A DNA stretch of 64,000 bases. Source: Pseudomonadota bacterium (GTDB lineage: Bacteria > Pseudomonadota > Alphaproteobacteria > Micropepsales > Micropepsaceae). Positions 324-13,588 of this stretch are shown piece after piece (the first letter of the stretch is position 1; each line of letters opens with the position of its first letter). The notes beneath the pieces were generated by a model that saw only the letters and a program-made list of their open reading frames with translations, did no database searches and was not told the origin of the DNA. The stretch is taken from assembly GCA_021851325.1 (NCBI GenBank), contig JAJZDZ010000014.1, positions 1-64,000 on the forward strand. The letters run 5' to 3'. The position numbers and the translations under genes are program-made.

Positions 324-931
324 GCCCTCTGCTTATCTGCGCTCTCTGCTTCGGCCATGGCAACAGAACCTCCTGCCGCCAGCGTTTTGCCGCAGATATC
401 ACCCGGGCCGCGGAGCGCTTCGCTCTGCCGCGCGCCTGGATCTGTGCGGTGATCGAGGTTGAATCAGGGGGCCATCAAAGGCTTGATGGAGTTCCCATCG
501 TGTCGGCCCGAGGTGCGATGGGCCTGATGCAGCTGATGCCCAAGACTTTCGCTGCGATGGCACGGCGCTATCACTTGCCGGCCACGCCCTTTGCCGCCCG
601 GGAAAATATCCTCGCGGGCGCTGGCTATCTGCACCGCTGCTATCTACGCTTCGGCTTTCCACTGCTCTTTTCCGCCTACGCGGCCGGACCTGACCGGGTG
701 GAAAAGTTTATCATCCATGGCGAGCCGCTGCCGCGCTCTGCAAGAGACTATACGCTGCACATCCTTCACAGCCTTGGCGCAGGTCGAAGAGTGATGGTGT
801 CGGTCAGGCCCGCCGCGGCGCGTGATCTCTTTGTTACCGCAACCGATGGCAATCGGCTTTTCGCGCGGCCTCCTTCTGGCGGAGCATCCACGCCGAGCGC
901 GCGCGCAGGAACCCCAATCTATGGTCGATGA
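311..931 (+). CDS. Lytic transglycosylase (SLT domain), conjugation-associated
   Basis: AVIEVESGG...SARGAMGLMQLMPKTFAAMA...NILAGAGYLHR SLT motifs; overlaps upstream traF. Confidence 0.88.
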   Translation: MAALSPLLICALCFGHGNRTSCRQRFAADITRAAERFALPRAWICAVIEVESGGHQRLDGVPIVSARGAMGLMQLMPKTFAAMARRYHLPATPFAARENILAGAGYLHRCYLRFGFPLLFSAYAAGPDRVEKFIIHGEPLPRSARDYTLHILHSLGAGRRVMVSVRPAAARDLFVTATDGNRLFARPPSGGASTPSARAGTPIYGR

Positions 932-2636
932 AAACAGCGAGCCTTTTTCTACTGCACGCACGTCCCTCTTTGCCGGCGACAGAGAGCGTCATCTGAATCT
1001 CGTCCTGCGCGCCGTTGCACGCATGGGTGGCTTTGCGCGCCGCCGGCGGGCTTACGCGGGCCGTGGACAGGGTGCGGGTGCTGCCTCTGTGCTTGCGCTT
1101 GGCGGGGCGCAGAAATTTTCACGTGGAGTGAGGGTGGCACCGCGGATCGTGCGGGTACGAGGCCACGTCTGCGCCGCCCAGCAGCATCTGCGCTACCTTC
1201 AGCGCGCGGGCGTGGGCCGCGAGACGCTTCATGGTTCGCTCTATGATGGAAGTCAGGACAAAGCGGATGGCCGCAGCTTTCTTGAACGCTCCCGCGCCGA
1301 CCCCTACCAGTTCCGGATTGTGGTGGCGGTCGAACATGGCTGGGAATATGCGAGCCTGCGCCACCTGACCCGACGCCTGCTCAAGGAGATGGAACTTGAT
1401 CTGGGCAGCGCGCTTGAGTGGGTCGCAGCCGATCACTACAACACAGGCTTTCCGCACACCCATATTGTTCTGCGTGGCGTAGATGGCCGCGGCGATGAAC
1501 TGCGCATCGCGCGCGCTTATCTGCGCGAAGGCCTGCGCCTGCGCGCCGCCAAGATCGTGGAGCTCGATCTTGCGCCCCCTGACCCTGAGGACTCCCGTCA
1601 TAAGTGTTTGGCGGACGCCGGAAAGCGCGCACCCACCCCGCTTGAGCCCCGCCTTGAGGCTCTCGCTGATGCCCATGGCAGTTTGGTTCTTGCCGGCAGG
1701 GGCCTCGACAGCTTCCAGCACAGCTTGCTGGCCGCGCGGCTGCAGACCCTGAAGGCACTTGGTCTGGCAGAAGAGCGGCGCGGTGGACGCTGGCACTTGC
1801 TCGCGCACCTTCATCCGACACTTGAGGCGCTCGCTACCCGCGACATTCGCCTTGGCATTCTCGACGGGGCGGTTGCGCACCACGCACTCGTTCGTACCGC
1901 ACGCCAGCGCGCGATCTTTGATCCGGTCTCTGCCGCACGCGGTGCTCTGGTTGGCTGCGTATTGGGGCAGGGGCGGGGGAGCGACGGACGAAACTTTCTC
2001 GCTGTGGATGGCCATGACGGACGCAGCTATTTTGTTGATCTGGGCTTTCTGAAGCCGCTGTCGCTGTCCCACCAGGCGATCGTTGCCATCACGCCAAGGC
2101 CGCGCGCTCCGCAGCCTCTCGACCACATCATCGCCGCGGTTGCAAAGCTCCATGACGGGCACTACAGCCTCGCGTATCACAGAGCGTCTCATCCCGATCT
2201 TGCAGCGGGCGAAGCTGAACGTTGCTTCCAGCGCCTCACCGCACTTGGCGCCGATCTTGACCTGCGTGAGATCCGCCCGGGACTGTGGCAGCTGGAGGAG
2301 GATTTTCTCGCCCGCATTGCCCGCTTTGCCACGGCTCGGGCGCGTCTTTATCCGGTCGCCGTAAAAATTCTGTCCGAAGCACCGCTGGAGCAGTTGCTGG
2401 CAGGAGGGGTGCCATCCTGGCTCTATCATGAACCAGTCCGGGGCCTTGCGTTAAGCGCTCTTGGCTTTGGCGGCAGGATGCAGGACGCCATCGGCCATTG
2501 GCAAACGCCCGGCACCCGTATCGTGGTCGAGCGGCCTGAACCTACGCCAGTCGTTGATTGGTCGCTGCATCAGGGGCCGGCCCGTGACCACGGCGCGCGC
2601 GGCCGGCCTCGGCAGCTTGGTAGAGCCCTAATATGA
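921..2636 (+). CDS. Conjugative relaxase, TraI/VirD2-like with DUF3363-type C-terminus
   Basis: Relaxase HUH-like motif DHYNTGFPHTHIVLRG; long C-terminal region as in DUF3363 relaxases; start chosen at MVDENSEPF inside the 822..2636 ORF. Confidence 0.82.
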   Translation: MVDENSEPFSTARTSLFAGDRERHLNLVLRAVARMGGFARRRRAYAGRGQGAGAASVLALGGAQKFSRGVRVAPRIVRVRGHVCAAQQHLRYLQRAGVGRETLHGSLYDGSQDKADGRSFLERSRADPYQFRIVVAVEHGWEYASLRHLTRRLLKEMELDLGSALEWVAADHYNTGFPHTHIVLRGVDGRGDELRIARAYLREGLRLRAAKIVELDLAPPDPEDSRHKCLADAGKRAPTPLEPRLEALADAHGSLVLAGRGLDSFQHSLLAARLQTLKALGLAEERRGGRWHLLAHLHPTLEALATRDIRLGILDGAVAHHALVRTARQRAIFDPVSAARGALVGCVLGQGRGSDGRNFLAVDGHDGRSYFVDLGFLKPLSLSHQAIVAITPRPRAPQPLDHIIAAVAKLHDGHYSLAYHRASHPDLAAGEAERCFQRLTALGADLDLREIRPGLWQLEEDFLARIARFATARARLYPVAVKILSEAPLEQLLAGGVPSWLYHEPVRGLALSALGFGGRMQDAIGHWQTPGTRIVVERPEPTPVVDWSLHQGPARDHGARGRPRQLGRALI

Positions 2637-2858
2637 ATTTTCTTCTTCGTGGTCTGAGATGAGAGCCCAATCATCGGCTCCATAGTCCCAGCAGCAGACT
2701 TGAGCCCAGCGGTATTTGCCGCCGCGAATCCCCCCTTTAGCCTTCTCCTCTGCCTCGGTTGGGCTATCGGTGTATTCGTAATGGTCCTCCGGACCATCGC
2801 TTTCGGGATCAAGCCAGTAGCAAATACAAAATTGCCTACCAGCTTTGGGAATGCTCAT
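2628..2858 (-). CDS. Small hypothetical protein (76 aa), last gene of the AbiL-like operon
   Basis: ORF overlaps the stop of the upstream 95-aa ORF (2855-2858); Trp/Cys-rich acidic protein; same strand as RloB/AAA genes. Confidence 0.55.
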   Translation of the reverse strand: MSIPKAGRQFCICYWLDPESDGPEDHYEYTDSPTEAEEKAKGGIRGGKYRWAQVCCWDYGADDWALISDHEEENSY

Positions 2859-3142
2859 CTCACCCTCGCCTCAGCTACGATAGCCGCTCGATCGGCCTTC
2901 ACAGGAGGGATCCATCGAGGCAAATGCAGGATGGCGAAGAACCGTCGCCTCCCCTCATCCCGCTCATAGGCCCGTGTAGTCCCACTAAGGCTGTCACTGT
3001 GGTCGAAGACATGGACGGTACCATTCCATACAGGCTTGCCCTCAAATTCCTCATGGACCGGGACTGACTGGACGAGGCTGGCCGTGCCGCCGTTCTGGGG
3101 TTCGGAGGCTTGCTGGAGTTCCAGGCTTGGTACTTCCACCAC
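2855..3142 (-). CDS. Small hypothetical protein (95 aa) directly downstream of RloB
   Basis: Starts 2 nt after the RloB stop; contains VHVFDHSDSLSGTTRAYERDEGRRRFFAILHLP. Confidence 0.55.
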   Translation of the reverse strand: MVEVPSLELQQASEPQNGGTASLVQSVPVHEEFEGKPVWNGTVHVFDHSDSLSGTTRAYERDEGRRRFFAILHLPRWIPPVKADRAAIVAEARVR

Positions 3143-3144
3143 TC

Positions 3145-3777
3145 CTAAGCTTTCAACTTGCGAAGATAGTCCACCAGCAAATGCATATCTGTCGCAGGAT
3201 TGGTAGCATCGGCAGCCTGGTTATGTCTCGCTAATCTAACTGCATTTCGAATCGCGGCGTCTGTCATTTCCTTGACAATTTCATATATGCCCGTGTGCCC
3301 CTTTGCATAATCAGGCAAGTATTTCCTTAGTTCGCTGATAGCCATGTCTCCAGCAGATTTTGTCCGGCTTTGCACGATGGGGGCTGTTGAAAAGCCATAA
3401 TGCAGCATCAGCCAGACTTCAAAACATGGCGTTGAAGTTATCGCCTGCCAAGTCCCGGACCTTCCGCGCTCTGAATCTGCTACGCGCCTAACTGCCTCGT
3501 CGAAATTTGGGTGGCCATCTCTATCGAATACACTGAACGCCCGGTCAAAATCGTCGGCCTGCATGATGCTTTCTGTGTACTCAACGACCGTCAGCGGATC
3601 GGTGCCAGGCGCATTTGTCACCCGTATATTGGCGCTGCTCAACCGGTACGAGGACTTAAGGCCATTGAGATAGTTTGGTTCAGTCTTACTTCCTTCGCAG
3701 ACGATCAGCACAGTATCGTATTCTTCACGGACGGGTCCGCGTCGCGCATACGACAAAGGAAACCTCTCCCGTCCCAT
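3145..3777 (-). CDS. rloB: RloB-like protein (AbiLii-like)
   Basis: VLIVCEGSKTEPNYLNGL N-terminal motif, VFDRDGHPNFDEAV and STPCFEVWLMLHYGF are characteristic of RloB. Confidence 0.85.
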   Translation of the reverse strand: MGRERFPLSYARRGPVREEYDTVLIVCEGSKTEPNYLNGLKSSYRLSSANIRVTNAPGTDPLTVVEYTESIMQADDFDRAFSVFDRDGHPNFDEAVRRVADSERGRSGTWQAITSTPCFEVWLMLHYGFSTAPIVQSRTKSAGDMAISELRKYLPDYAKGHTGIYEIVKEMTDAAIRNAVRLARHNQAADATNPATDMHLLVDYLRKLKA

Positions 3778-3780
3778 TGC

Positions 3781-5052
3781 TCAGTCCGCGGCATCGGTTA
3801 GGACTGGCTGGGCGCCATAGCGGCCTTTCATGTATGCCCGTTCAAATGCTTCATCGTTTCTCGGGCTGAAATCCGTTAGCGGGTATAGCCTCGACGAACC
3901 ATTGGATTGTTTTTCCATGAACCAAATCTGATCGCGCCTGAAAAGGTTCCGATCAAGAATGGAAGTGTTATGCGTGCTACAGATTAGCTGGGCGTTGTTT
4001 AGATTGGCCTTCGAAGATTGAAAACGCCCAATTAGGAACCTGAGCAACGTTGGGTGCATATTCGTATCGATTTCGTCGAACAAAAGCACTTCACCTCTGG
4101 ACAGGACGTTTAGCCATGCCCCTGCTGTCTTGAATAGGATTTGCGTGCCAGAAGATTCTTCCGAAAAGTCGAAACCAACTGGTGTCTTGCTATCTCCCTT
4201 ATGTGAGATCGTGACCGTGACTATGGTCGGAGCCGTACCGCTCTTGGGGGGAGTCAACATCGGCTCGCCTTTTCCGACGATGACGCCTCCATGAGGAATT
4301 GGCTCTCTTTTTACCTGGAAGTCTGCGATCCCGAGATCAGCTTCCTTTAGAAATGGAAGCACGCGCTCCTTTCCCCCCGGTTGGTCGAGCAATTCAAGGG
4401 TAAGCGACTTATTCAGTTGGACCTCTCCGGCGATTACGACTAGTCGTTTTTGGAACCAGTCATATACCGGGCGAAGCTGAGTACTATTTAGCTGAATAGC
4501 GGTAGACAGAAAGAGAGCGTCCGGTCGCGTTGCGTCTCTCCAAACCGCAGGTTGCCCCTTCAGATACGAACCATACTTGAATTCAACTTTCTTTGTTTTT
4601 CTATTCCATTTTCGATTGAATAGGGTTCTCCCGCGTGTGCGGGAGCCGGAACGGACATATTCGACGAGCCATTCCTTCTCGACACGTTCTGGGCCAAGCG
4701 CGAAGCCGTATTCATATCTGGTGGTGCCTTGCGCGAATGTGATTTGGAATTCGCTTGGCTGCTTCGTGCAAGCACTATTGAGTTTGAACGGGCTAAACGG
4801 CGTGTTCCCAGAAGTGGTGGATGCGGACTCGATGACAAAGTCCTTCATGAACTTCACTGCCAGCAGCAAATTCGTTTTGCCGCCCGCGTTTGGACCATAG
4901 ATGGCTGCCGCGCGGAGCAATCTACCGAATCCCTGTAGTGGGGGCTCGAAGGTGTTGGAATCGACGTGCTCGGGAAATTGTCCCGCTACCATCGAGAAGG
5001 TCTGGCGATCCTTGAAGGATCTGAAGTTCTCCACTTGGAATTCAATTAGCAC
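3781..5052 (-). CDS. AAA15-family ATPase (AbiLi / RloA-like)
   Basis: MLIEFQVENFRSFKDRQTFSMVAG, Walker A YGPNAGGKTNLL, Walker B VLLFDEIDTNMHPTLL, STHNTSIL; 3 nt upstream of rloB. Confidence 0.88.
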   Translation of the reverse strand: MLIEFQVENFRSFKDRQTFSMVAGQFPEHVDSNTFEPPLQGFGRLLRAAAIYGPNAGGKTNLLLAVKFMKDFVIESASTTSGNTPFSPFKLNSACTKQPSEFQITFAQGTTRYEYGFALGPERVEKEWLVEYVRSGSRTRGRTLFNRKWNRKTKKVEFKYGSYLKGQPAVWRDATRPDALFLSTAIQLNSTQLRPVYDWFQKRLVVIAGEVQLNKSLTLELLDQPGGKERVLPFLKEADLGIADFQVKREPIPHGGVIVGKGEPMLTPPKSGTAPTIVTVTISHKGDSKTPVGFDFSEESSGTQILFKTAGAWLNVLSRGEVLLFDEIDTNMHPTLLRFLIGRFQSSKANLNNAQLICSTHNTSILDRNLFRRDQIWFMEKQSNGSSRLYPLTDFSPRNDEAFERAYMKGRYGAQPVLTDAAD

Positions 5053-5164
5053 GGTTCCACCTCGAATTTAAGCTTAATAATCGCTGAGAGTCCGCATATT
5101 TGTCAATTAAATTAGGTATCGACCGAATCGTGTTATCTAACCGTTTGAATAATAATATGAATCC

Positions 5165-5935
5165 CCTTTCTATCGAATGTCACCCCCCACGCCATCGCGA
5201 CCTTGGTCGAGGGCAATTCCATCCGGTCGGTCAAGCGGATGACGGAAACGCACCGCGATACGGTCATGCGGCTTATGGTCGAGGTTGGCGCAGGCTGCCA
5301 GCAACTAGTGGACCAGAAGATGCGCAATTTTTCGTGCAAGCACATTCGGATGCAGGTCGATGATGTCCGCCGCGCTGGTGATTTGTGGACGTGGGTTGTG
5401 CTTGATCCCGAGACAAAGCTGGTGCCGTCCACCGTGTAGGCAAGCGGATGGGCGCGGACGCTGTAGCGTTTATGGCCGATCTTTCCGAACGCGTTGCCAA
5501 TCGGGTGCAAATCTCTTCGGACGGCCTTACGTCGTACATCGACGCGGTTGAACGGGCGTTTGGCACAGATGTGGACCATGCCCAGGTAGTTAAATTTTAT
5601 GATGCGGAACAGATCGGCCCGGGGCGTTACTCGCCCCGAAGGTCATGGGTCAGGAGAAAGCCGCTACCACCGGCTCTCCAGATCAACGGCATATCTCTAA
5701 CAGCTAGGTGGAGCGGCAGAACCTGAGCATGCGGATGCAGATGCGGCGGTTTACCCGCCTGACCAATGATTTCAGCAAGAAGGTCGAAAGCCTCAAGGCG
5801 GCGGCGCATCAGAATTTAGCGCGCTATAATTTCGTGCGCTTACACAAGGCCCTTCGAATTAGCCCTGCCACGGCGCCGGGTGTGTCTTATAGACTCTGGA
5901 CACTAGGGGAATTGGTGGAACAGACGTCGAGGTAA
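5165..5935 (+). pseudogene. IS1-family transposase remnant, frameshifted into at least three pieces
   Basis: Consecutive ORFs in different frames: LVEGNSIRSVKRMTETHRDTVMRLMVEVG (5203..5439), ADLSERVANRVQISSDGLTSYIDAVERAFG (5448..5726), VERQNLSMRMQMRRFTRLTNDFSKKVESLKAA...YNFVRLHKALR (5708..5935) together read as one IS1-like transposase. Confidence 0.85.
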
Positions 5936-5937
5936 AA

Positions 5938-6123
5938 ATGCGAGGAAAAGTGAAAGTATACGCGTTCAGGCGTCCCGACCCGGCAGGCTACGACAAAAGG
6001 CGTCCTGTGAAAGGAACAGTTGAAGCTATCGAGCGCGCTAGGGGGACGGTTATCCCGGGCACAGAAGAGACCATTGACGCGTCGCTTCTAGATGGTGCTG
6101 GCTACTACCGTCTGTCAAATTAG
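5938..6123 (+). CDS. Small hypothetical ORF (61 aa) between transposase remnant and putative IS right end
   Basis: Complete ATG-to-TAG ORF immediately after the transposase remnant; no recognised family. Confidence 0.35.
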   Translation: MRGKVKVYAFRRPDPAGYDKRRPVKGTVEAIERARGTVIPGTEETIDASLLDGAGYYRLSN

Positions 6124-6244
6124 ACACTACCGGCAGCTTTATCGGCAGGAGCGCTTGGATCGAAATCGAAATGACACAAATATTTGCTTGGTTGCAAAGC
6201 GCGAGCGCGGGCCCGCAATTGCCCGTTAGAACTGGAGAAAAGCC

Positions 6245-7069
6245 ATGCGCGGTTTGGCAGGAGCCCTCATCGTTGCCCTCAGTCTGGTCTCAGGAATAAC
6301 CCCGGCTTTTGCCTGGGGGGCCGAAGGGCACCGCATTGTCGCCTTCATTGCCGCAAGCGAACTGACGCCTCCGGCGCGCGCCGAGGTGTCGCGTCTTCTG
6401 GGCGGATCCCTCCCGCGTGCCATGGTTCGCGTCTCGACCTGGGCCGATGCGATCCGTCGTGACCGGCCCCATACGGCACCCTGGCATTATGTCGATATTC
6501 CGTTCGGCAGTTCCGGCTATGTGGCCGCCCGCGACTGTCGCGAGGGAAACTGCGTCGTGGCACAGATTGAACGCGACACCCGTCGCATTGCTGATCGTGA
6601 ACTGACAGACGCGGTGCGGGCACGGGCGCTGCGCTTTCTTATTCATTTTGTGGCGGATGAGCACCAGCCCCTGCACGCGGCCAATGATCATGATCGCGGT
6701 GGCAATGAGGTGCATGTGGTGCTGAACGGACGGCACACCAATTTGCATGCCGTCTGGGATGATGCCGTGGTCAGAGCCCTTGGACGTAGTCCGGCCCGCG
6801 TTGCACGGCGTCTTGAGGCCCGCATCACACCCTTTGAGCGCGCCCGCTGGCAACAGGGTAACCCGGTAGACTGGGCCAATAATTCTTTTGCGATCGCCAG
6901 CCGTGACATCTTTCCACTGCTGCACGGCCGCTCCTACCGCTACGCCCCTCTCATTCTGCCGCCCGATTATGCGCGCCGTAATGCTCCCATTGCCGCCCGG
7001 CAGCTGGAAAAGGCAGGCGTGCGCCTCGCGCTGCTGCTGAACCGTGCCTTTGCCACGGCCAGGCCCTGA
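6245..7069 (+). CDS. S1/P1-family nuclease, secreted
   Basis: Signal peptide ending AFAWGAEGHRIVA (Trp at mature N-terminus), TAPWHYVDIP, HFVADEHQPLHAANDHDRGGNEVHV, NLHAVWDD zinc-binding motifs. Confidence 0.92.
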   Translation: MRGLAGALIVALSLVSGITPAFAWGAEGHRIVAFIAASELTPPARAEVSRLLGGSLPRAMVRVSTWADAIRRDRPHTAPWHYVDIPFGSSGYVAARDCREGNCVVAQIERDTRRIADRELTDAVRARALRFLIHFVADEHQPLHAANDHDRGGNEVHVVLNGRHTNLHAVWDDAVVRALGRSPARVARRLEARITPFERARWQQGNPVDWANNSFAIASRDIFPLLHGRSYRYAPLILPPDYARRNAPIAARQLEKAGVRLALLLNRAFATARP

Positions 7070-7271
7070 GCATCCTGCTTCGCAATGACAGGCTGTAAGC
7101 CTGATACCGGCATGACAGGCGCACGCCCGTGCGCGTGCATGAAACTGTGCTTCGTCGTGCCGACGTCCGCGTCCACATAAGCCATCAAGAGTGCCCAAGA
7201 GGGTCATAGGCGCTTGGGCCTGCCGCTGGCAGGCTCTGCCCGCATCCTCAACTTGAGCTCCCAGGGCACTC

Positions 7272-9203
7272 ATGTCGGCCACCCGGATCTATTTTGGTCA
7301 GAGCCTTGCGGTCGTTTCCGTGGTCATCCTGGGGCTGTGGCTGGCCACGGAATTCATTGCCGCCCGGTTTGGCTTTTCAGTGCGGTTAGGGCCGCCCTGT
7401 TTCGAACTTGGCGGGCTTCCCCTCTATGCGCCGTGGCGCATGTTTCTGTGGTGGTGGGAGTATGGCGCCTATGCTCCACAGGTGTTTGACGACGCCGGAG
7501 CAATTGCCGCGGCCGGCGGCGTTCTAGCCTTCATCCTGGCCGTGAGCTGTGCGCTTATCCGCGCACGACAGACCCGCGTCGTCACCACCTATGGCTCGTC
7601 ACGCTGGGCGAGCCGTTCTGAAATCCGCAAAGCCGGACTGTTTCGCGCCCAGGGGGTGATCCTCGGCGGTTTTGAGGGGCGCTACCTGCGCCATTCCGGC
7701 CCGGAACACGTCATCGCCTTTGCCCCTACGCGTTCGGGAAAGGGTGTCGGGCTTGTTATCCCGACACTCCTGTCCTGGACCGGCAGTGCGGTCATCCATG
7801 ACGTCAAGGGTGAAAACTGGCAGCTGACCGCCGGCTGGCGGGCCTTGTTCTCCGACTGTCTGCTCTTCAACCCGACAGACGTGCGTTCTGCCCGCTACAA
7901 CCCGCTCTTTGAGGTCCGCAAGGGCCCACACGAGATTCGCGATGTCCAGAACATCGCCGACATTCTGGTGGATCCGGAAGGCGCCCTGGAACGTCGCAAC
8001 CACTGGGAAAAGACCAGTCATTCGCTTCTCGTGGGTGTCATCCTGCACGTACTCTACGCGGAGCCGGACAAGACCCTTTCGGGCGTTGCCAATTTTCTCT
8101 CTGACCCGAAGCGCTCGTTCGAAGAGACCCTGCGGGCAATGATGCAGAGCAATCATCTGGGAAGCGCGGCGCAGGCCGTGGTTCATCCGGTGGTGGCCTC
8201 CGCTGCGCGCGAGCTTCTCAACAAGGCTGAAAACGAGCGCTCCGGGGTGCTGTCGACGGCACTCTCGTTTCTCGGCCTCTATCGCGATCCCACGGTCGCG
8301 GCCGTAACCGGGGCCTGTGACTGGCGCATTCTTGACCTCATCGAAGCCGAACGACCGATCTCGCTCTATTTTGTCATCCCGCCTTCGGATATTTCGCGGA
8401 CCAAGCCGCTCGTCCGCCTCATCCTCAACCAGATCGGCCGGCGTCTGACCGAAAAACTTGAAGGCGATGCCAGGGTCGGGCGGCGTCATCAGCTGCTCAT
8501 GATGCTCGATGAGTTTGCCGCCCTTGGTCGTCTTGATTTCTTCGAGACCGCACTTGCGTTCATGGCCGGCTATGGCATTCGCGCCTATCTCATCGCCCAG
8601 TCGCTCAACCAGATTGCCAAGGCCTATGGCGACAACAATGCAATCCTCGACAATTGTCACGTGCGCATTGCCTTCAGCAGCAATGACGAGCGCACGGCCA
8701 AACGTATTTCCGATGCCCTGGGCACAGCAACCGAACTTCACGCGCAGCACAATTATGCCGGCCATCGCCTCGCGCCCTGGCTTGCCCATGTTTCGGTATC
8801 ACGCCAGCAGACGCCGCGCCCGCTCCTGACCCCCGGCGAAATCATGCAATTGCCAGCAGAGGATGCCCTCGTCCTGGTCAGTGGTCTGCCGCCGATCCGC
8901 GCGCGCAAATTGCGCTATTATCGGGACAGGAACTTCCTCACCCGCCTTCTGCCCGCGCCAGAGCCTGCGCCATTGGCCGAGCAAGGCGCCGGCCGTGACC
9001 ATGACTGGCAGGATGGGCCTTTTCGCCCGGTGCAGAGCACGACCGGGCCTTTCTCCGAACGTAGCCCGGCCGCCGACGCGCCACCGCCACCGGTCACGCC
9101 AATTCGCGGCGATTTCTTCAGCTTTGTGACCGCGATTGATGCCGTGCCGACAGAGGCGGAGCCCCAATCCCAGATCAAGACAGGAGAAGGCGATGAAAAC
9201 TGA
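7272..9203 (+). CDS. traG: Type IV coupling protein TraG/VirD4
   Basis: Walker A FAPTRSGKGVGLVIPTLLSW, HDVKGENW, MMLDEFAALGRLDFFE. Confidence 0.95.
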   Translation: MSATRIYFGQSLAVVSVVILGLWLATEFIAARFGFSVRLGPPCFELGGLPLYAPWRMFLWWWEYGAYAPQVFDDAGAIAAAGGVLAFILAVSCALIRARQTRVVTTYGSSRWASRSEIRKAGLFRAQGVILGGFEGRYLRHSGPEHVIAFAPTRSGKGVGLVIPTLLSWTGSAVIHDVKGENWQLTAGWRALFSDCLLFNPTDVRSARYNPLFEVRKGPHEIRDVQNIADILVDPEGALERRNHWEKTSHSLLVGVILHVLYAEPDKTLSGVANFLSDPKRSFEETLRAMMQSNHLGSAAQAVVHPVVASAARELLNKAENERSGVLSTALSFLGLYRDPTVAAVTGACDWRILDLIEAERPISLYFVIPPSDISRTKPLVRLILNQIGRRLTEKLEGDARVGRRHQLLMMLDEFAALGRLDFFETALAFMAGYGIRAYLIAQSLNQIAKAYGDNNAILDNCHVRIAFSSNDERTAKRISDALGTATELHAQHNYAGHRLAPWLAHVSVSRQQTPRPLLTPGEIMQLPAEDALVLVSGLPPIRARKLRYYRDRNFLTRLLPAPEPAPLAEQGAGRDHDWQDGPFRPVQSTTGPFSERSPAADAPPPPVTPIRGDFFSFVTAIDAVPTEAEPQSQIKTGEGDEN

Positions 9204-9609
9204 GCTGCGCCTGCGGATCGACGCGCTGCTGGCCGACGAGCTTCAGCGGCTGGCGCAAAAGCCCGGCGTGAGCAAGGCTGCGATCCTTGAAGATGCGCTG
9301 CGTGCTTATCTTGATCACAGTGCCAGCCGGGATCTCGATGATCGTCTTAGGGTGCGCCTCGAGCAGATTTCGTCCCAGTTAAACCGCATCGAGCGCGGTC
9401 TGCACATTCTGCAGGAGGGCTTTGGGCTCTATCTGCGCTTTGAATTCATCGCTACAGCCGCGGTGGCGGATGGTGACGAGGCCGCCCGGGCCATCGGCCA
9501 TCAACGCTATCAGTCCTATCTGCGCGAGCTGGGTCGCCGGCTCGCCCACGCCCGCAGCTTTCGCGACGTCGTAATGGCGCAGGCGCAAGACGGAAAGAAT
9601 GCATCATGA
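9193..9609 (+). CDS. CopG/ribbon-helix-helix family protein of conjugation locus
   Basis: MKTELRLRIDALLADELQRLAQKPGVSKAAILEDALRAYLD RHH-like N-terminus; located between traG and trbB. Confidence 0.8.
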   Translation: MKTELRLRIDALLADELQRLAQKPGVSKAAILEDALRAYLDHSASRDLDDRLRVRLEQISSQLNRIERGLHILQEGFGLYLRFEFIATAAVADGDEAARAIGHQRYQSYLRELGRRLAHARSFRDVVMAQAQDGKNAS

Positions 9610-10598
9610 GCACGGAGGCTGAGGGTGAAGCCCGCGCCCGACAGGGCAGCATGTTGCGGACGGCGATGGGCGGAACCATCGGCAAGGCTCTGGCCGATCC
9701 GTGCGTACTTGAGATCATGGTCAACCCGGATGGTGTGCTCCGGCTTGACCTTCTGGGGGAGGGCCGGCGTGATACCGGCACCCGGCTTTCTGCCGCTGAG
9801 GCCGAACGCATCATACGGCTGATCGCCTCCCACATCAGAAGCGAGGCCCACGCCGGAAATCCCATCATCAGTGCCGAGTTGCCGAGTGGGGAGCGCTTTG
9901 AGGGGCTGCTTCCGCCCGTGGTCAGCGCGCCCTGCTTTGCCATTCGCAAGCCCGCGTCCAGACTTTACAGCCTGTCGGACTATGTCGCTGACGGCATTCT
10001 CAGCGCGGCCCATGCCGATCTTCTGGTCGAAGCCGTAGGTGCCCGACGCAACATTCTGGTCGCCGGAAGTACGAGTTCGGGCAAGACCACACTTGCCAAC
10101 GCCCTGCTTGCCGAGATCGCCAAGACCGGCGAACGCGTGGTTCTCATCGAAGATACCCGCGAACTTCGCTGTGCCGCCACCGACTGCCTGTCCTTGCGCA
10201 CCCGCGCCGGCCATGTCGATCTGGCGCGGCTGGTGCGTTCGACACTGCGTCTGCGTCCTGATCGTATCATCGTCGGTGAAGTCCGTGGTGACGAGGCGCT
10301 CGACATGCTGAAAGCCTGGAATACCGGCCATCCCGGTGGCATCGCCACAGTCCATGCCAATTCGGCGGCGGCCGCGCTTCTGCGTCTTGAGCAGCTGATC
10401 GAAGAGCGCGTCAGGCTGTCACCACGCGCCCTCATCGCCGAGGCCATCGATCTGGTCGTCTTCATTGAGGGCCGCGGACGGCAGCGACGGATAAAGACGG
10501 TTATCGAACTGACGGGGCTGGATGGTGATGGCGCCTACGCCTTTCGCCCCATTACCACTGACGCGTACGGAAGGAGAGCAAGTCATGGCATGGCGTAA
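9606..10598 (+). CDS. trbB: P-type conjugative transfer ATPase TrbB
   Basis: VAGSTSSGKTTLANALL Walker A, RIIVGEVRGDEALDMLKAWNTGHPGGIATVHANS. Confidence 0.95.
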   Translation: MSTEAEGEARARQGSMLRTAMGGTIGKALADPCVLEIMVNPDGVLRLDLLGEGRRDTGTRLSAAEAERIIRLIASHIRSEAHAGNPIISAELPSGERFEGLLPPVVSAPCFAIRKPASRLYSLSDYVADGILSAAHADLLVEAVGARRNILVAGSTSSGKTTLANALLAEIAKTGERVVLIEDTRELRCAATDCLSLRTRAGHVDLARLVRSTLRLRPDRIIVGEVRGDEALDMLKAWNTGHPGGIATVHANSAAAALLRLEQLIEERVRLSPRALIAEAIDLVVFIEGRGRQRRIKTVIELTGLDGDGAYAFRPITTDAYGRRASHGMA

Positions 10599-10911
10599 GC
10601 TTTATGCAAGCGTGAGCTTCTGGCTGACGACACTGGCCGTCCTGATCTGGGCACCGCCCGCCCTGGCCGTGGGTACCAATATGCCCTGGGAACAACCTCT
10701 GCAGCAGATCCTCGATTCAGTGCAGGGGCCGGTGGCCAAGATCATCGCTGTGCTTGTGATCATCGTCACCGGCCTTACTCTTGCTTTTGGCGAAACCGCC
10801 GGCGGCTTTCGCCGCATGATCCAGATCGTCTTCGGCATTTCCATCGCCTTCGCGGCATCGAGCTTCTTTCTGACCTTCTTCTCGTTCGCCGGAGGCGCGC
10901 TGGTGTCATGA
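10585..10911 (+). CDS. trbC: Conjugal transfer pilin TrbC
   Basis: Signal peptide plus two hydrophobic segments, position after trbB; GPVAKIIAVLVIIVTGLTLAFGE. Confidence 0.88.
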   Translation: MAWRKLYASVSFWLTTLAVLIWAPPALAVGTNMPWEQPLQQILDSVQGPVAKIIAVLVIIVTGLTLAFGETAGGFRRMIQIVFGISIAFAASSFFLTFFSFAGGALVS

Positions 10912-11165
10912 GCGCGGATGGCTTTGAAGTGGTCCTCCACCCCTCCTTGTGCGAACCGATCCTGCTCGGTGGCGCGCCGCGGGCGCTCGCCATTCTGAAC
11001 GGCACCCTGGCGGCCGCGCTGGGGCTTGGCTTGCAGCAGTTCGTACCCGGCCTGGTGCTGTGGCTCTTTGGCCATTCCCTGGCTGTGGTCATGGCCCGCC
11101 GCGATCCTGATTTTGCCCCTGTTCTGCTGCGCCATCTGCGTCATCGGGACTTTCTGTCATGTTGA
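10908..11165 (+). CDS. trbD: Conjugal transfer protein TrbD
   Basis: VLHPSLCEPILLGGAPRALAILNGTLAAALGL; position between trbC and trbE. Confidence 0.9.
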   Translation: MSADGFEVVLHPSLCEPILLGGAPRALAILNGTLAAALGLGLQQFVPGLVLWLFGHSLAVVMARRDPDFAPVLLRHLRHRDFLSC

Positions 11166-13588
11166 ACCTCGGCGAATACCGTCCGCGCTGCGACCGACTT
11201 GCGGACTACCTGCCCTGGGCCTTCCTGATTGCGCGGGGCGTCGTCCTCAACAAGGACGGCAGCTTTCAGCGCAGCTTCGGTTTTCGTGGGCCTGACCTGG
11301 AAAGTGCTACCGAAGCTGAACTGGTCGCGGCCTGTGCACGGCTCAACAATGTGCTGCGCCGCTTTGGTTCCGGCTGGGCTCTGTTCTTCGAAGCGGAACG
11401 GTTTGCGGCGGCCGGCTATCCGCAATCGCACTTTCCCGATGTGGCTTCCGCGCTCATCGATGCCGAACGCCGGGCTGCCTTTACCGCGAATGCAACCTGC
11501 CCGGAAGGAGAGCATTTCGAGACGGCCTATACGCTCACGGTACTTTTTCTGCCGCCGGTTGATCCGGCGCGGCGCGCCGAACAAGCCTGGATCCGTCGGC
11601 CGGGCGCCGGGCAGGGGCGCGACTGGCGTCAGGAACTGGACGCTTTCGTCGCCCGTACCGATGAGCTCTTCGATCTGCTCTACGCCATCCTGCCGGAGAT
11701 CGAACCTCTGGATGATGCCCGTACGCTCAGCTACCTGCATCGCACCATCTCGCCGCAACGCCACAACCTCGTGGTCCCCGAGACGCCTCTTTATCTTGAT
11801 GCCCTGCTGGTCGATACGCCACTCAGCGGTGGCATCGAGCCCATGCTGGGCGAGGCCCATCTTCGGGTTCTGACCTTGCTCGGCTTTCCCAACCGCTCGC
11901 GGCCTGGCCTCCTCGATGGGCTCAATCATCTGGGCGTCGACTATCGTTGGATGAGCCGTTTTCTGCCCCTGAATAAGAGCGATGCCAACAAGGTGCTGCT
12001 GCGGCTGCGCCGGCAGTGGTTCAACAAACGCAAATCAGTCGCCGCACTCCTGCGTGAGGTTCTGCATAACGAACCCAGCGTGCTGATTGACAGTGACGCC
12101 GACAACAAGCTCGTCGATGCCGATCTGGCGCTGCAGGAACTGGGGGCCGATCAGGTTTCCTTTGGCTATCTCACCACCTCGATCGTGGTGATGGACAAGG
12201 ATCCTGCCGCTGCGCGCGACAAGCTGCGCGCGATCGAGCAGGTGGTGCATGGTGCGGGCTTTACCGCCATCCGCGAAAGCCTCAATGCGGTCGATGCCTG
12301 GCTCGGATCACTGCCAGGACACGCCTATGCCAATGTGCGCCAGCCATTGGTGCATTCGCTCAATCTTGCCCATCTGGTACCGTTCTCGGCACTGTGGGCA
12401 GGCCCGCAAGGTGACGCCCATCTGCAAGGGCCGCCACTCTTCGTCGCCGAAACCAGCGGCTTTACCCCTTTCCGCTTTTCCACCCATGTCGGGGATGTCG
12501 GCCATCTGCTCATCGTCGGTCCCACAGGGGCTGGAAAATCGGTGCTGCTGGCCCTGATGGCGCTGCAGTTTCGCCGCTATGCCGGGGCGCAGGTCTACAT
12601 CTTCGACAAGGGCAATTCGGCGCGGGCCGCGGTACTGGCGGCGGGTGGTTGCCATCACCGCCTGGCCGACGCGGACGGACTGTCGTTTCAGCCCCTGCGC
12701 CATATCGACCGCGCGGCGGAACTGAGCTGGGCCTTTGCCTGGCTGGGTGCTCTTCTCGAACAGGAACGCGTCCACCTCGATCCCGAACTCAAGGAGCGTT
12801 TGTGGTCCGCACTCTGCAGCCTCGCCTCGGCGCCCGCCGAGGAGCGGACGCTGACGGGGCTTGCCGTGCTGGTGCAGTCCCAGCTCCTCAAGGACGGCCT
12901 CATGCCCTATACCCTCGAGGGCCCTTACGGACGGCTCCTTGATGGCGCCGAGGACCGTCTTGCACTGGCCGATCTGCAATGTTTCGAGACCGAAGCCCTG
13001 ATGGCGGAAGAGGGGGCGGTCAAGCCGGTCCTGAGTTACATCTTCCACCGTCTCGAAGCCCGCTTTGTTGATCGCCCGAGCCTTCTCATTCTCGATGAAG
13101 CCTGGCTCTTTCTCGACAATCCTCTTTTTGCCGCCCGCATTCGTGAATGGCTGAAGGTGCTGCGCAAAAAGAATGTCGCAGTCGTCTTTGCCACCCAGTC
13201 GCTGGCCGATATCCAGGCCAGTGCAATTGCTCCAGCCATTATCGAAAGCTGCCCGCAGCGCATCTTCTTGCCCAATGACCGCGCCCAGGAACCGCAGGCG
13301 CGCAGCGCCTATGAAAGCTTTGGCCTCAATACGCGGCAGATCGCGCTCATCGCCTATGCCGTGCCCAAGCGCCAGTATTACCTCCAGTCCCGACGTGGCA
13401 ACCGCCTGTTCGAACTGGCCCTCGGGCCACTTGCGCAGGCGCTGTGCGGCGCCTCTGACGGTCTGAGCCAGAAACTCATCGACGGGCTCCTTAGCGAGGC
13501 CGGTGCGGCGGAGTTTGCCGCGCGCTTTCTCGCCGCCAAAGGTCTTGACTGGGCCGGGCCCCTGATCGCGAACTGGGAGCTCTCGTGA
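11159..13588 (+). CDS. trbE: VirB4-family ATPase TrbE
   Basis: LLIVGPTGAGKSVLLALMALQF, LLILDEAWLFLDNP, ATQSLADI. Confidence 0.95.
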   Translation: MLNLGEYRPRCDRLADYLPWAFLIARGVVLNKDGSFQRSFGFRGPDLESATEAELVAACARLNNVLRRFGSGWALFFEAERFAAAGYPQSHFPDVASALIDAERRAAFTANATCPEGEHFETAYTLTVLFLPPVDPARRAEQAWIRRPGAGQGRDWRQELDAFVARTDELFDLLYAILPEIEPLDDARTLSYLHRTISPQRHNLVVPETPLYLDALLVDTPLSGGIEPMLGEAHLRVLTLLGFPNRSRPGLLDGLNHLGVDYRWMSRFLPLNKSDANKVLLRLRRQWFNKRKSVAALLREVLHNEPSVLIDSDADNKLVDADLALQELGADQVSFGYLTTSIVVMDKDPAAARDKLRAIEQVVHGAGFTAIRESLNAVDAWLGSLPGHAYANVRQPLVHSLNLAHLVPFSALWAGPQGDAHLQGPPLFVAETSGFTPFRFSTHVGDVGHLLIVGPTGAGKSVLLALMALQFRRYAGAQVYIFDKGNSARAAVLAAGGCHHRLADADGLSFQPLRHIDRAAELSWAFAWLGALLEQERVHLDPELKERLWSALCSLASAPAEERTLTGLAVLVQSQLLKDGLMPYTLEGPYGRLLDGAEDRLALADLQCFETEALMAEEGAVKPVLSYIFHRLEARFVDRPSLLILDEAWLFLDNPLFAARIREWLKVLRKKNVAVVFATQSLADIQASAIAPAIIESCPQRIFLPNDRAQEPQARSAYESFGLNTRQIALIAYAVPKRQYYLQSRRGNRLFELALGPLAQALCGASDGLSQKLIDGLLSEAGAAEFAARFLAAKGLDWAGPLIANWELS

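Follow-up and report, generated by a model that had tools for sequence, protein, structure and literature searches.

An AbiL-type gene pair in a very probable cargo-bearing IS1-family element of an alphaproteobacterium

Introduction

Defence genes are known on plasmids, prophages, integrative elements and larger transposons. Transporter IS, insertion sequences that carry passenger genes, include the ISMhu11 group of the IS1 family and are among the known kinds nearest to the element described here.

A relationship between the RloB domain and OLD-type TOPRIM nucleases has been described, and in E. coli a pair of AAA and RloB-like genes functions as antitoxin and toxin (PMC10440598). AbiL of Lactococcus (AbiLi/AbiLii), RloA/RloB and the NetFlax pairs of AAA (D29) and RloB-like TOPRIM (D44) proteins (PMC10440598) share with the locus studied here the two-gene arrangement of an AAA ATPase and RloB. 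This locus is located in the window, that is, the whole stretch of 64,000 nucleotides that was analysed (contig JAJZDZ010000014.1, assembly GCA_021851325.1, Micropepsaceae). The original prediction combined the pair with two small ORFs and considered the four genes as a possible undescribed defence system.

Results

ATPase and RloB genes

Four tightly coupled ORFs had been described on the minus strand, and they were confirmed: an AbiLi-type AAA ATPase of 423 aa (3781-5052, GTG start, Walker A motif GPNAGGKT), an RloB/AbiLii-type protein of 210 aa (3145-3777), a 95-aa ORF (2855-3142, GTG start) and a 76-aa ORF (2628-2858), the last two overlapping by 4 nt. The ATPase matched AbiLi in PADLOC at 8.5e-96 and AriA more weakly (4e-35), while its best Pfam match was AAA_21 (3e-33) and AAA_15 reached only 3e-6, under the cut-off; the predicted AAA15 ATPase and RloB were thus both recovered, except for the AAA_15 assignment. 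The RloB ORF matched PF13707 (2.8e-36) in Pfam and AbiLii (8e-24) in PADLOC. The motifs CEGxxTE and FDxD, invariant in RloB, are both retained, and the protein is a putative TOPRIM-like nuclease.

The ATPase was adjacent in 21 of 22 RloB matches in the class (a few overlapping or previously seen) and in 56 of 58 viral contigs with RloB, pooled 77 of the 80 other RloB matches. The predicted AbiL/RloAB-type architecture is well supported by this tally and by the strong profile matches. With an ATPase of the AbiLi kind, an RloB/AbiLii partner directly downstream and the acidic motifs kept, the two genes are, as judged from their sequences, an AbiL/RloAB-type pair, an already known kind of system. 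The closest relative pair (G026; about 70% and 63% identity) comprises two genes only, followed by a spacer and an IS110-type element. Compared with this pair, both genes showed pN values of 0.20-0.24 and saturated synonymous change, a pattern that purifying selection would be expected to leave, and the pair in the window is still intact.

Ends, insertion site and transposase

The element in the window was delimited at 2619-6131. Its left terminal inverted repeat (GGTAGAGCCCTAATATGA, 2619-2636) differs by 3 edits from the consensus GGTAGTGTCCTAATTTGA, built from 8 relatives, and the right one (TCAAATTAGACACTACC, 6115-6131) by 1 edit. These repeats, of about 18 bp and imperfect, were set by comparison with relatives and were missed by the strict automatic search; the shared end TCAAATTAGGACACTACC was found beyond the transposase and its inverted partner beyond the 95-aa gene. 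Outside the repeats, the target-site duplication GGCAGCTT is present as exact 8-bp copies at 2611-2618 and 6132-6139. A relaxase-like gene (DUF3363, RlxS type; 822-2636, plus strand) is interrupted near its 3' end, and its displaced C-terminal codons lie at 6140-6229 (plus strand). When the flanks are fused and the second copy of the duplication is omitted, these codons are in frame, and the frame runs on for about 29 more codons. A relaxase relative from genome G005 aligns, with low identity, over the join and shows no stop there; relaxase relatives show just 31-35% identity over the joined region.

The stretch 822-13588 encodes, together with the relaxase (DUF3363), a VirD4-type coupling protein, a VirB11-type ATPase and a VirB4/TrbE-type protein. 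A gene of the S1/P1 nuclease family (6245-7069; PF02265, 1.2e-61) is located between the relaxase and coupling protein genes.

An IS1-family transposase remnant was detected at 5191-5932 on the plus strand, with matches in three different frames and in-frame stops; open transposase frames were present in relatives only. The intact transposase of one relative (L031) matched PF03400 with 33.2 bits (cut-off 24.1). The IS1 NCBIfam equivalog model was matched with 56.6 bits, under its cut-off of 100, indicating a divergent branch of the IS1 family. Relatives in named plasmids carry an IS1-family annotation, and the ends agree with those of IS1 (inverted repeats starting with GG, target duplication of 8-9 bp), the duplication being of 8 bp in all 38 elements delimited. 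The general layout is inverted repeat, small ORF, transposase, divergent cargo operon, 95-aa gene, variable last ORF and inverted repeat. In the window, the first small ORF encodes 61 aa (5938-6123, plus strand), lies between the transposase and the right end, terminates at a stop codon within the inverted repeat and had no Pfam match. The 76-aa ORF is the last, variable one; its stop codon is inside the inverted repeat, which supplies that of the last ORF in many elements.

Small ORFs

The 95-aa and 76-aa ORFs gave no matches in Pfam, PADLOC or NCBIfam. In a search of the first 61 genomes, homologues of the 95-aa protein (48-69% identity) were found in 9 others, all belonging to the source genus, and the 76-aa protein had one distant relative (G008, about 33% identity) outside any element found; both are thus real gene families and not chance frames. 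No copies of either were detected in the plasmid search.

Ten of the 15 loci with the 95-aa gene fetched from named genomes also carry an IS1-type transposase or a fragment of it, and complete transposases at 95-aa loci are on the strand opposite to the 95-aa gene. There is a 4-nt overlap between this gene and the last ORF in L030, L031, L032 and L041, all with unrelated cargo, and in L034 a cargo gene unrelated to AbiL overlaps the 95-aa gene by 4 nt; tight coupling is therefore a property of the element family. The constant place of the gene across differing cargo suggests that the 95-aa protein may serve the element and not one particular defence system.

The window copy of this clade-specific passenger gene is probably damaged. 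It lacks the most conserved strand (AWSY) by a 12-bp deletion between CCTATG repeats and has a second altered stretch. An intact relative was modelled by AlphaFold with a mean pLDDT of 91 as a helix, four strands and a helix, and the window copy with a pLDDT of about 40 past residue 58; the latter looks broken. In a weak test, dN/dS was 0.35-0.49 between the window copy and its two nearest relatives and 0.30 between these relatives, so selection on the window copy would be at most slightly relaxed. Foldseek searches with the 95-aa protein found no PDB or viral model at E <= 0.001. A dsRNA-binding-like topology was initially considered for this protein and then abandoned, given the four strands of the intact model and the lack of a corresponding Foldseek match.

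The small proteins had been proposed as antitoxin, sensor or regulatory parts of a four-component AbiL variant, and the tally of their homologues downstream of RloB had been set beforehand as the test able to refute it. Either small gene was present beside RloB in 0 of 22 matches in the class and 0 of 58 viral contigs, 0 of 80 pooled, and both are absent beside the G026 pair; the proposal failed on this count. In the source genus, RloB was found in 4 of 69 genomes, and two of those searched (G000 and G005) also have the 95-aa gene, which in G005 sits on a different contig from RloB. A single-sequence RloB scan of genome contigs confirmed no relative, and a DNA search of plasmids for the four-gene block gave no match. 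Element ends were searched for around the 76-aa relative (G008) and five other RloB pairs (L019, L021-L024), and none were found; the AbiL pair thus also exists outside the IS1 carrier. Another AbiL-like pair (L021, in G005) is 1.4 kb from a complete IS1-type cargo element, outside it (3605-5513 and 6944-9819).

Related elements and their cargo

Nine complete elements with the 95-aa gene were delimited, including that of the window, all with exact 8-bp direct repeats and with differing cargo. With the transposase profile, copies were recovered from 25 of the 69 genomes searched in the source genus; 26 further genera of the class had them as well. The automatic search for ends and duplication delimited an element at 27 of the 40 survey loci versus 3 of 200 controls consisting of mismatched halves; as locus L069 repeats L035, 26 survey elements are distinct. 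Together with three named plasmid copies (Acidiphilium, Mesorhizobium and Hoeflea), 38 distinct elements (9 + 26 + 3) were delimited, with lengths of 2.5-4.2 kb (2.55-4.17 kb for survey loci). Searching the source genus with the end-sequence pattern gave 49 sites versus 1 for the reversed control. In a sister clade, which lacks the 95-aa gene, most elements have as their recurrent small gene one for a basic KRPADVIG...KGG...RW protein. Small basic proteins with the pattern KRPADVIG...IATGE...KGG.ARA...RW were observed in L053, L065, L068, L073-L076, L078, L079, L083, L084, L086 and L088, and one KGG-type protein is annotated as 'histone H1' in Mesorhizobium.

Cargo identified with Pfam and PADLOC comprised GmrSD/HEC-06, HEC-04, SoFic, RmrA, capP-like and PD-Lambda-2_B proteins as well as Panacea antitoxins, some PADLOC matches being weak (e.g., a Schlafen-like protein to pAgo models, and an HTH protein); Schlafen AlbA_2, nSTAND, GNAT, protease-like and P63C proteins were also present. 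The transposases of L031 and L032 are 86% identical and their cargo is unrelated, which indicates that cargo has been swapped between elements; those of L031 and L069 are 68% identical with cargo 82% identical. A RES/Xre toxin-antitoxin pair by the Acidiphilium element (L169) is beyond the element ends and was not counted as cargo.

The cargo seen most often consists of P63C-domain or P63C-like proteins (L031, L033, L035/L069, L041, L064 and L074), and P63C cargo and KGG accessory proteins have a KGG...RW motif in common. It is possible that P63C cargo genes are unrecognised defence or toxin genes. A family of about 250-310 aa starting with RSPxxPxIPL..AIERL is apparently recurrent as well (L059, with 268 aa, L066, L075, L084 and L086); the members tested had no match in Pfam, NCBIfam or PADLOC.

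Discussion

The stretch 2619-6131 is very probably one IS1-family element with passenger genes, including the AbiL pair, inserted in the 3' end of the relaxase gene beside conjugation genes. Inverted repeats shared with relatives, the exact 8-bp duplication, the restored relaxase frame and the IS1-type transposase together point to a cargo-bearing IS1 element, whose ends and transposase remnant would account for the four genes standing together. According to gene content, it lies in a conjugative island. Since the transposase is frameshifted and the 95-aa gene is without its core strand, the element is considered old and probably no longer self-mobile.

Transposon ends, target duplication and an upstream transposase remnant explain the co-location that had led to the proposal of a new four-gene defence system. 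A single system, with the small proteins serving ATPase/RloB as antitoxin, sensor or regulator, would fit adjacent genes in the same orientation with a 4-nt overlap; it is very improbable and was rejected, given that equally tight coupling is seen with unrelated cargo, that the small genes were never seen with RloB in the 80 other matches or the closest pair, and that the 95-aa copy in the window has lost its most conserved strand. Scarcely credible is the view that an independent IS1 insertion merely adjoins the AbiL pair and that the ends are fortuitous. Imperfect inverted repeats, a dead transposase and AbiL pairs known outside such elements are compatible with it, whereas the exact duplication at ends independently defined from relatives, the identical layout in eight other 95-aa elements and the relaxase frame restored on joining the flanks are not. 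As regards the family, we tentatively propose, as a possibility, that this widespread alphaproteobacterial IS1 branch is specialised in carrying defence and toxin-antitoxin modules, which would occupy a swappable slot beside a conserved accessory gene (95-aa or KGG-type) that might aid transposition, expression or cargo exchange. General-purpose carriers without preference for defence, holding an AbiL pair here by chance, seem rather unlikely: about half of the tested cargo proteins were without a PADLOC match, and P63C, protease-like and proteasome-like proteins are among the cargo, as such carriers would predict, while PADLOC matches at 1e-5 were obtained for 10 of 20 cargo proteins, a hand-chosen list giving a rough effect size, versus 0 of 10 adjacent chromosomal, non-element proteins.

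From the literature on such pairs, the AAA ATPase would hold RloB, a TOPRIM-like nuclease, inactive; phage infection would free it, nucleic acid would be cut, and the growth of the infected cell would stop. The comparison of elements suggests that the family may use ordinary transposition to spread defence or toxin-antitoxin modules of one or two genes, swapping cargo. Modules of this type might benefit the element through host protection or through a penalty on loss, as proposed for the toxin-antitoxin pairs of Tn3 (PMC7157771).

One- and two-gene defence modules in insertion sequences of 2.5-4.2 kb are easily missed by annotation in which only the transposase is named, and these elements would offer a concrete route for abortive-infection and toxin-antitoxin modules to jump and recombine. 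Screening for paired ends with an 8-bp duplication would also be a simple way of finding new defence genes among the cargo, for which the recurrent P63C proteins are possible candidates. Partial coverage of the literature on IS1 passenger genes and on IS elements with defence cargo gave nothing on point and, as far as that coverage shows, an IS1-family carrier with interchangeable defence cargo is a new form of a known kind.

Among the known systems, PARIS (AriA/AriB) resembles the window pair in combining an AAA ATPase with a TOPRIM-type nuclease partner (PMC10440598), the effector in the window being, unlike in PARIS, RloB (PF13707). Unlike the AbiL, RloA/RloB and NetFlax pairs, the window pair is very probably inside a short IS1-family element with transposon passenger genes. 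Tn3-family transposons with toxin-antitoxin pairs (PMC7157771) are similar in their interchangeable toxin-antitoxin or abortive-infection modules; the present elements differ in having another transposase family, a far shorter length and a wider range of defence cargo. With transporter IS they share an IS1-type transposase in a single frame, inverted repeats, 8-bp duplication and extra genes, whereas their cargo has a high share of defence and toxin-antitoxin modules, is exchanged between elements and is located beside clade-specific small genes.
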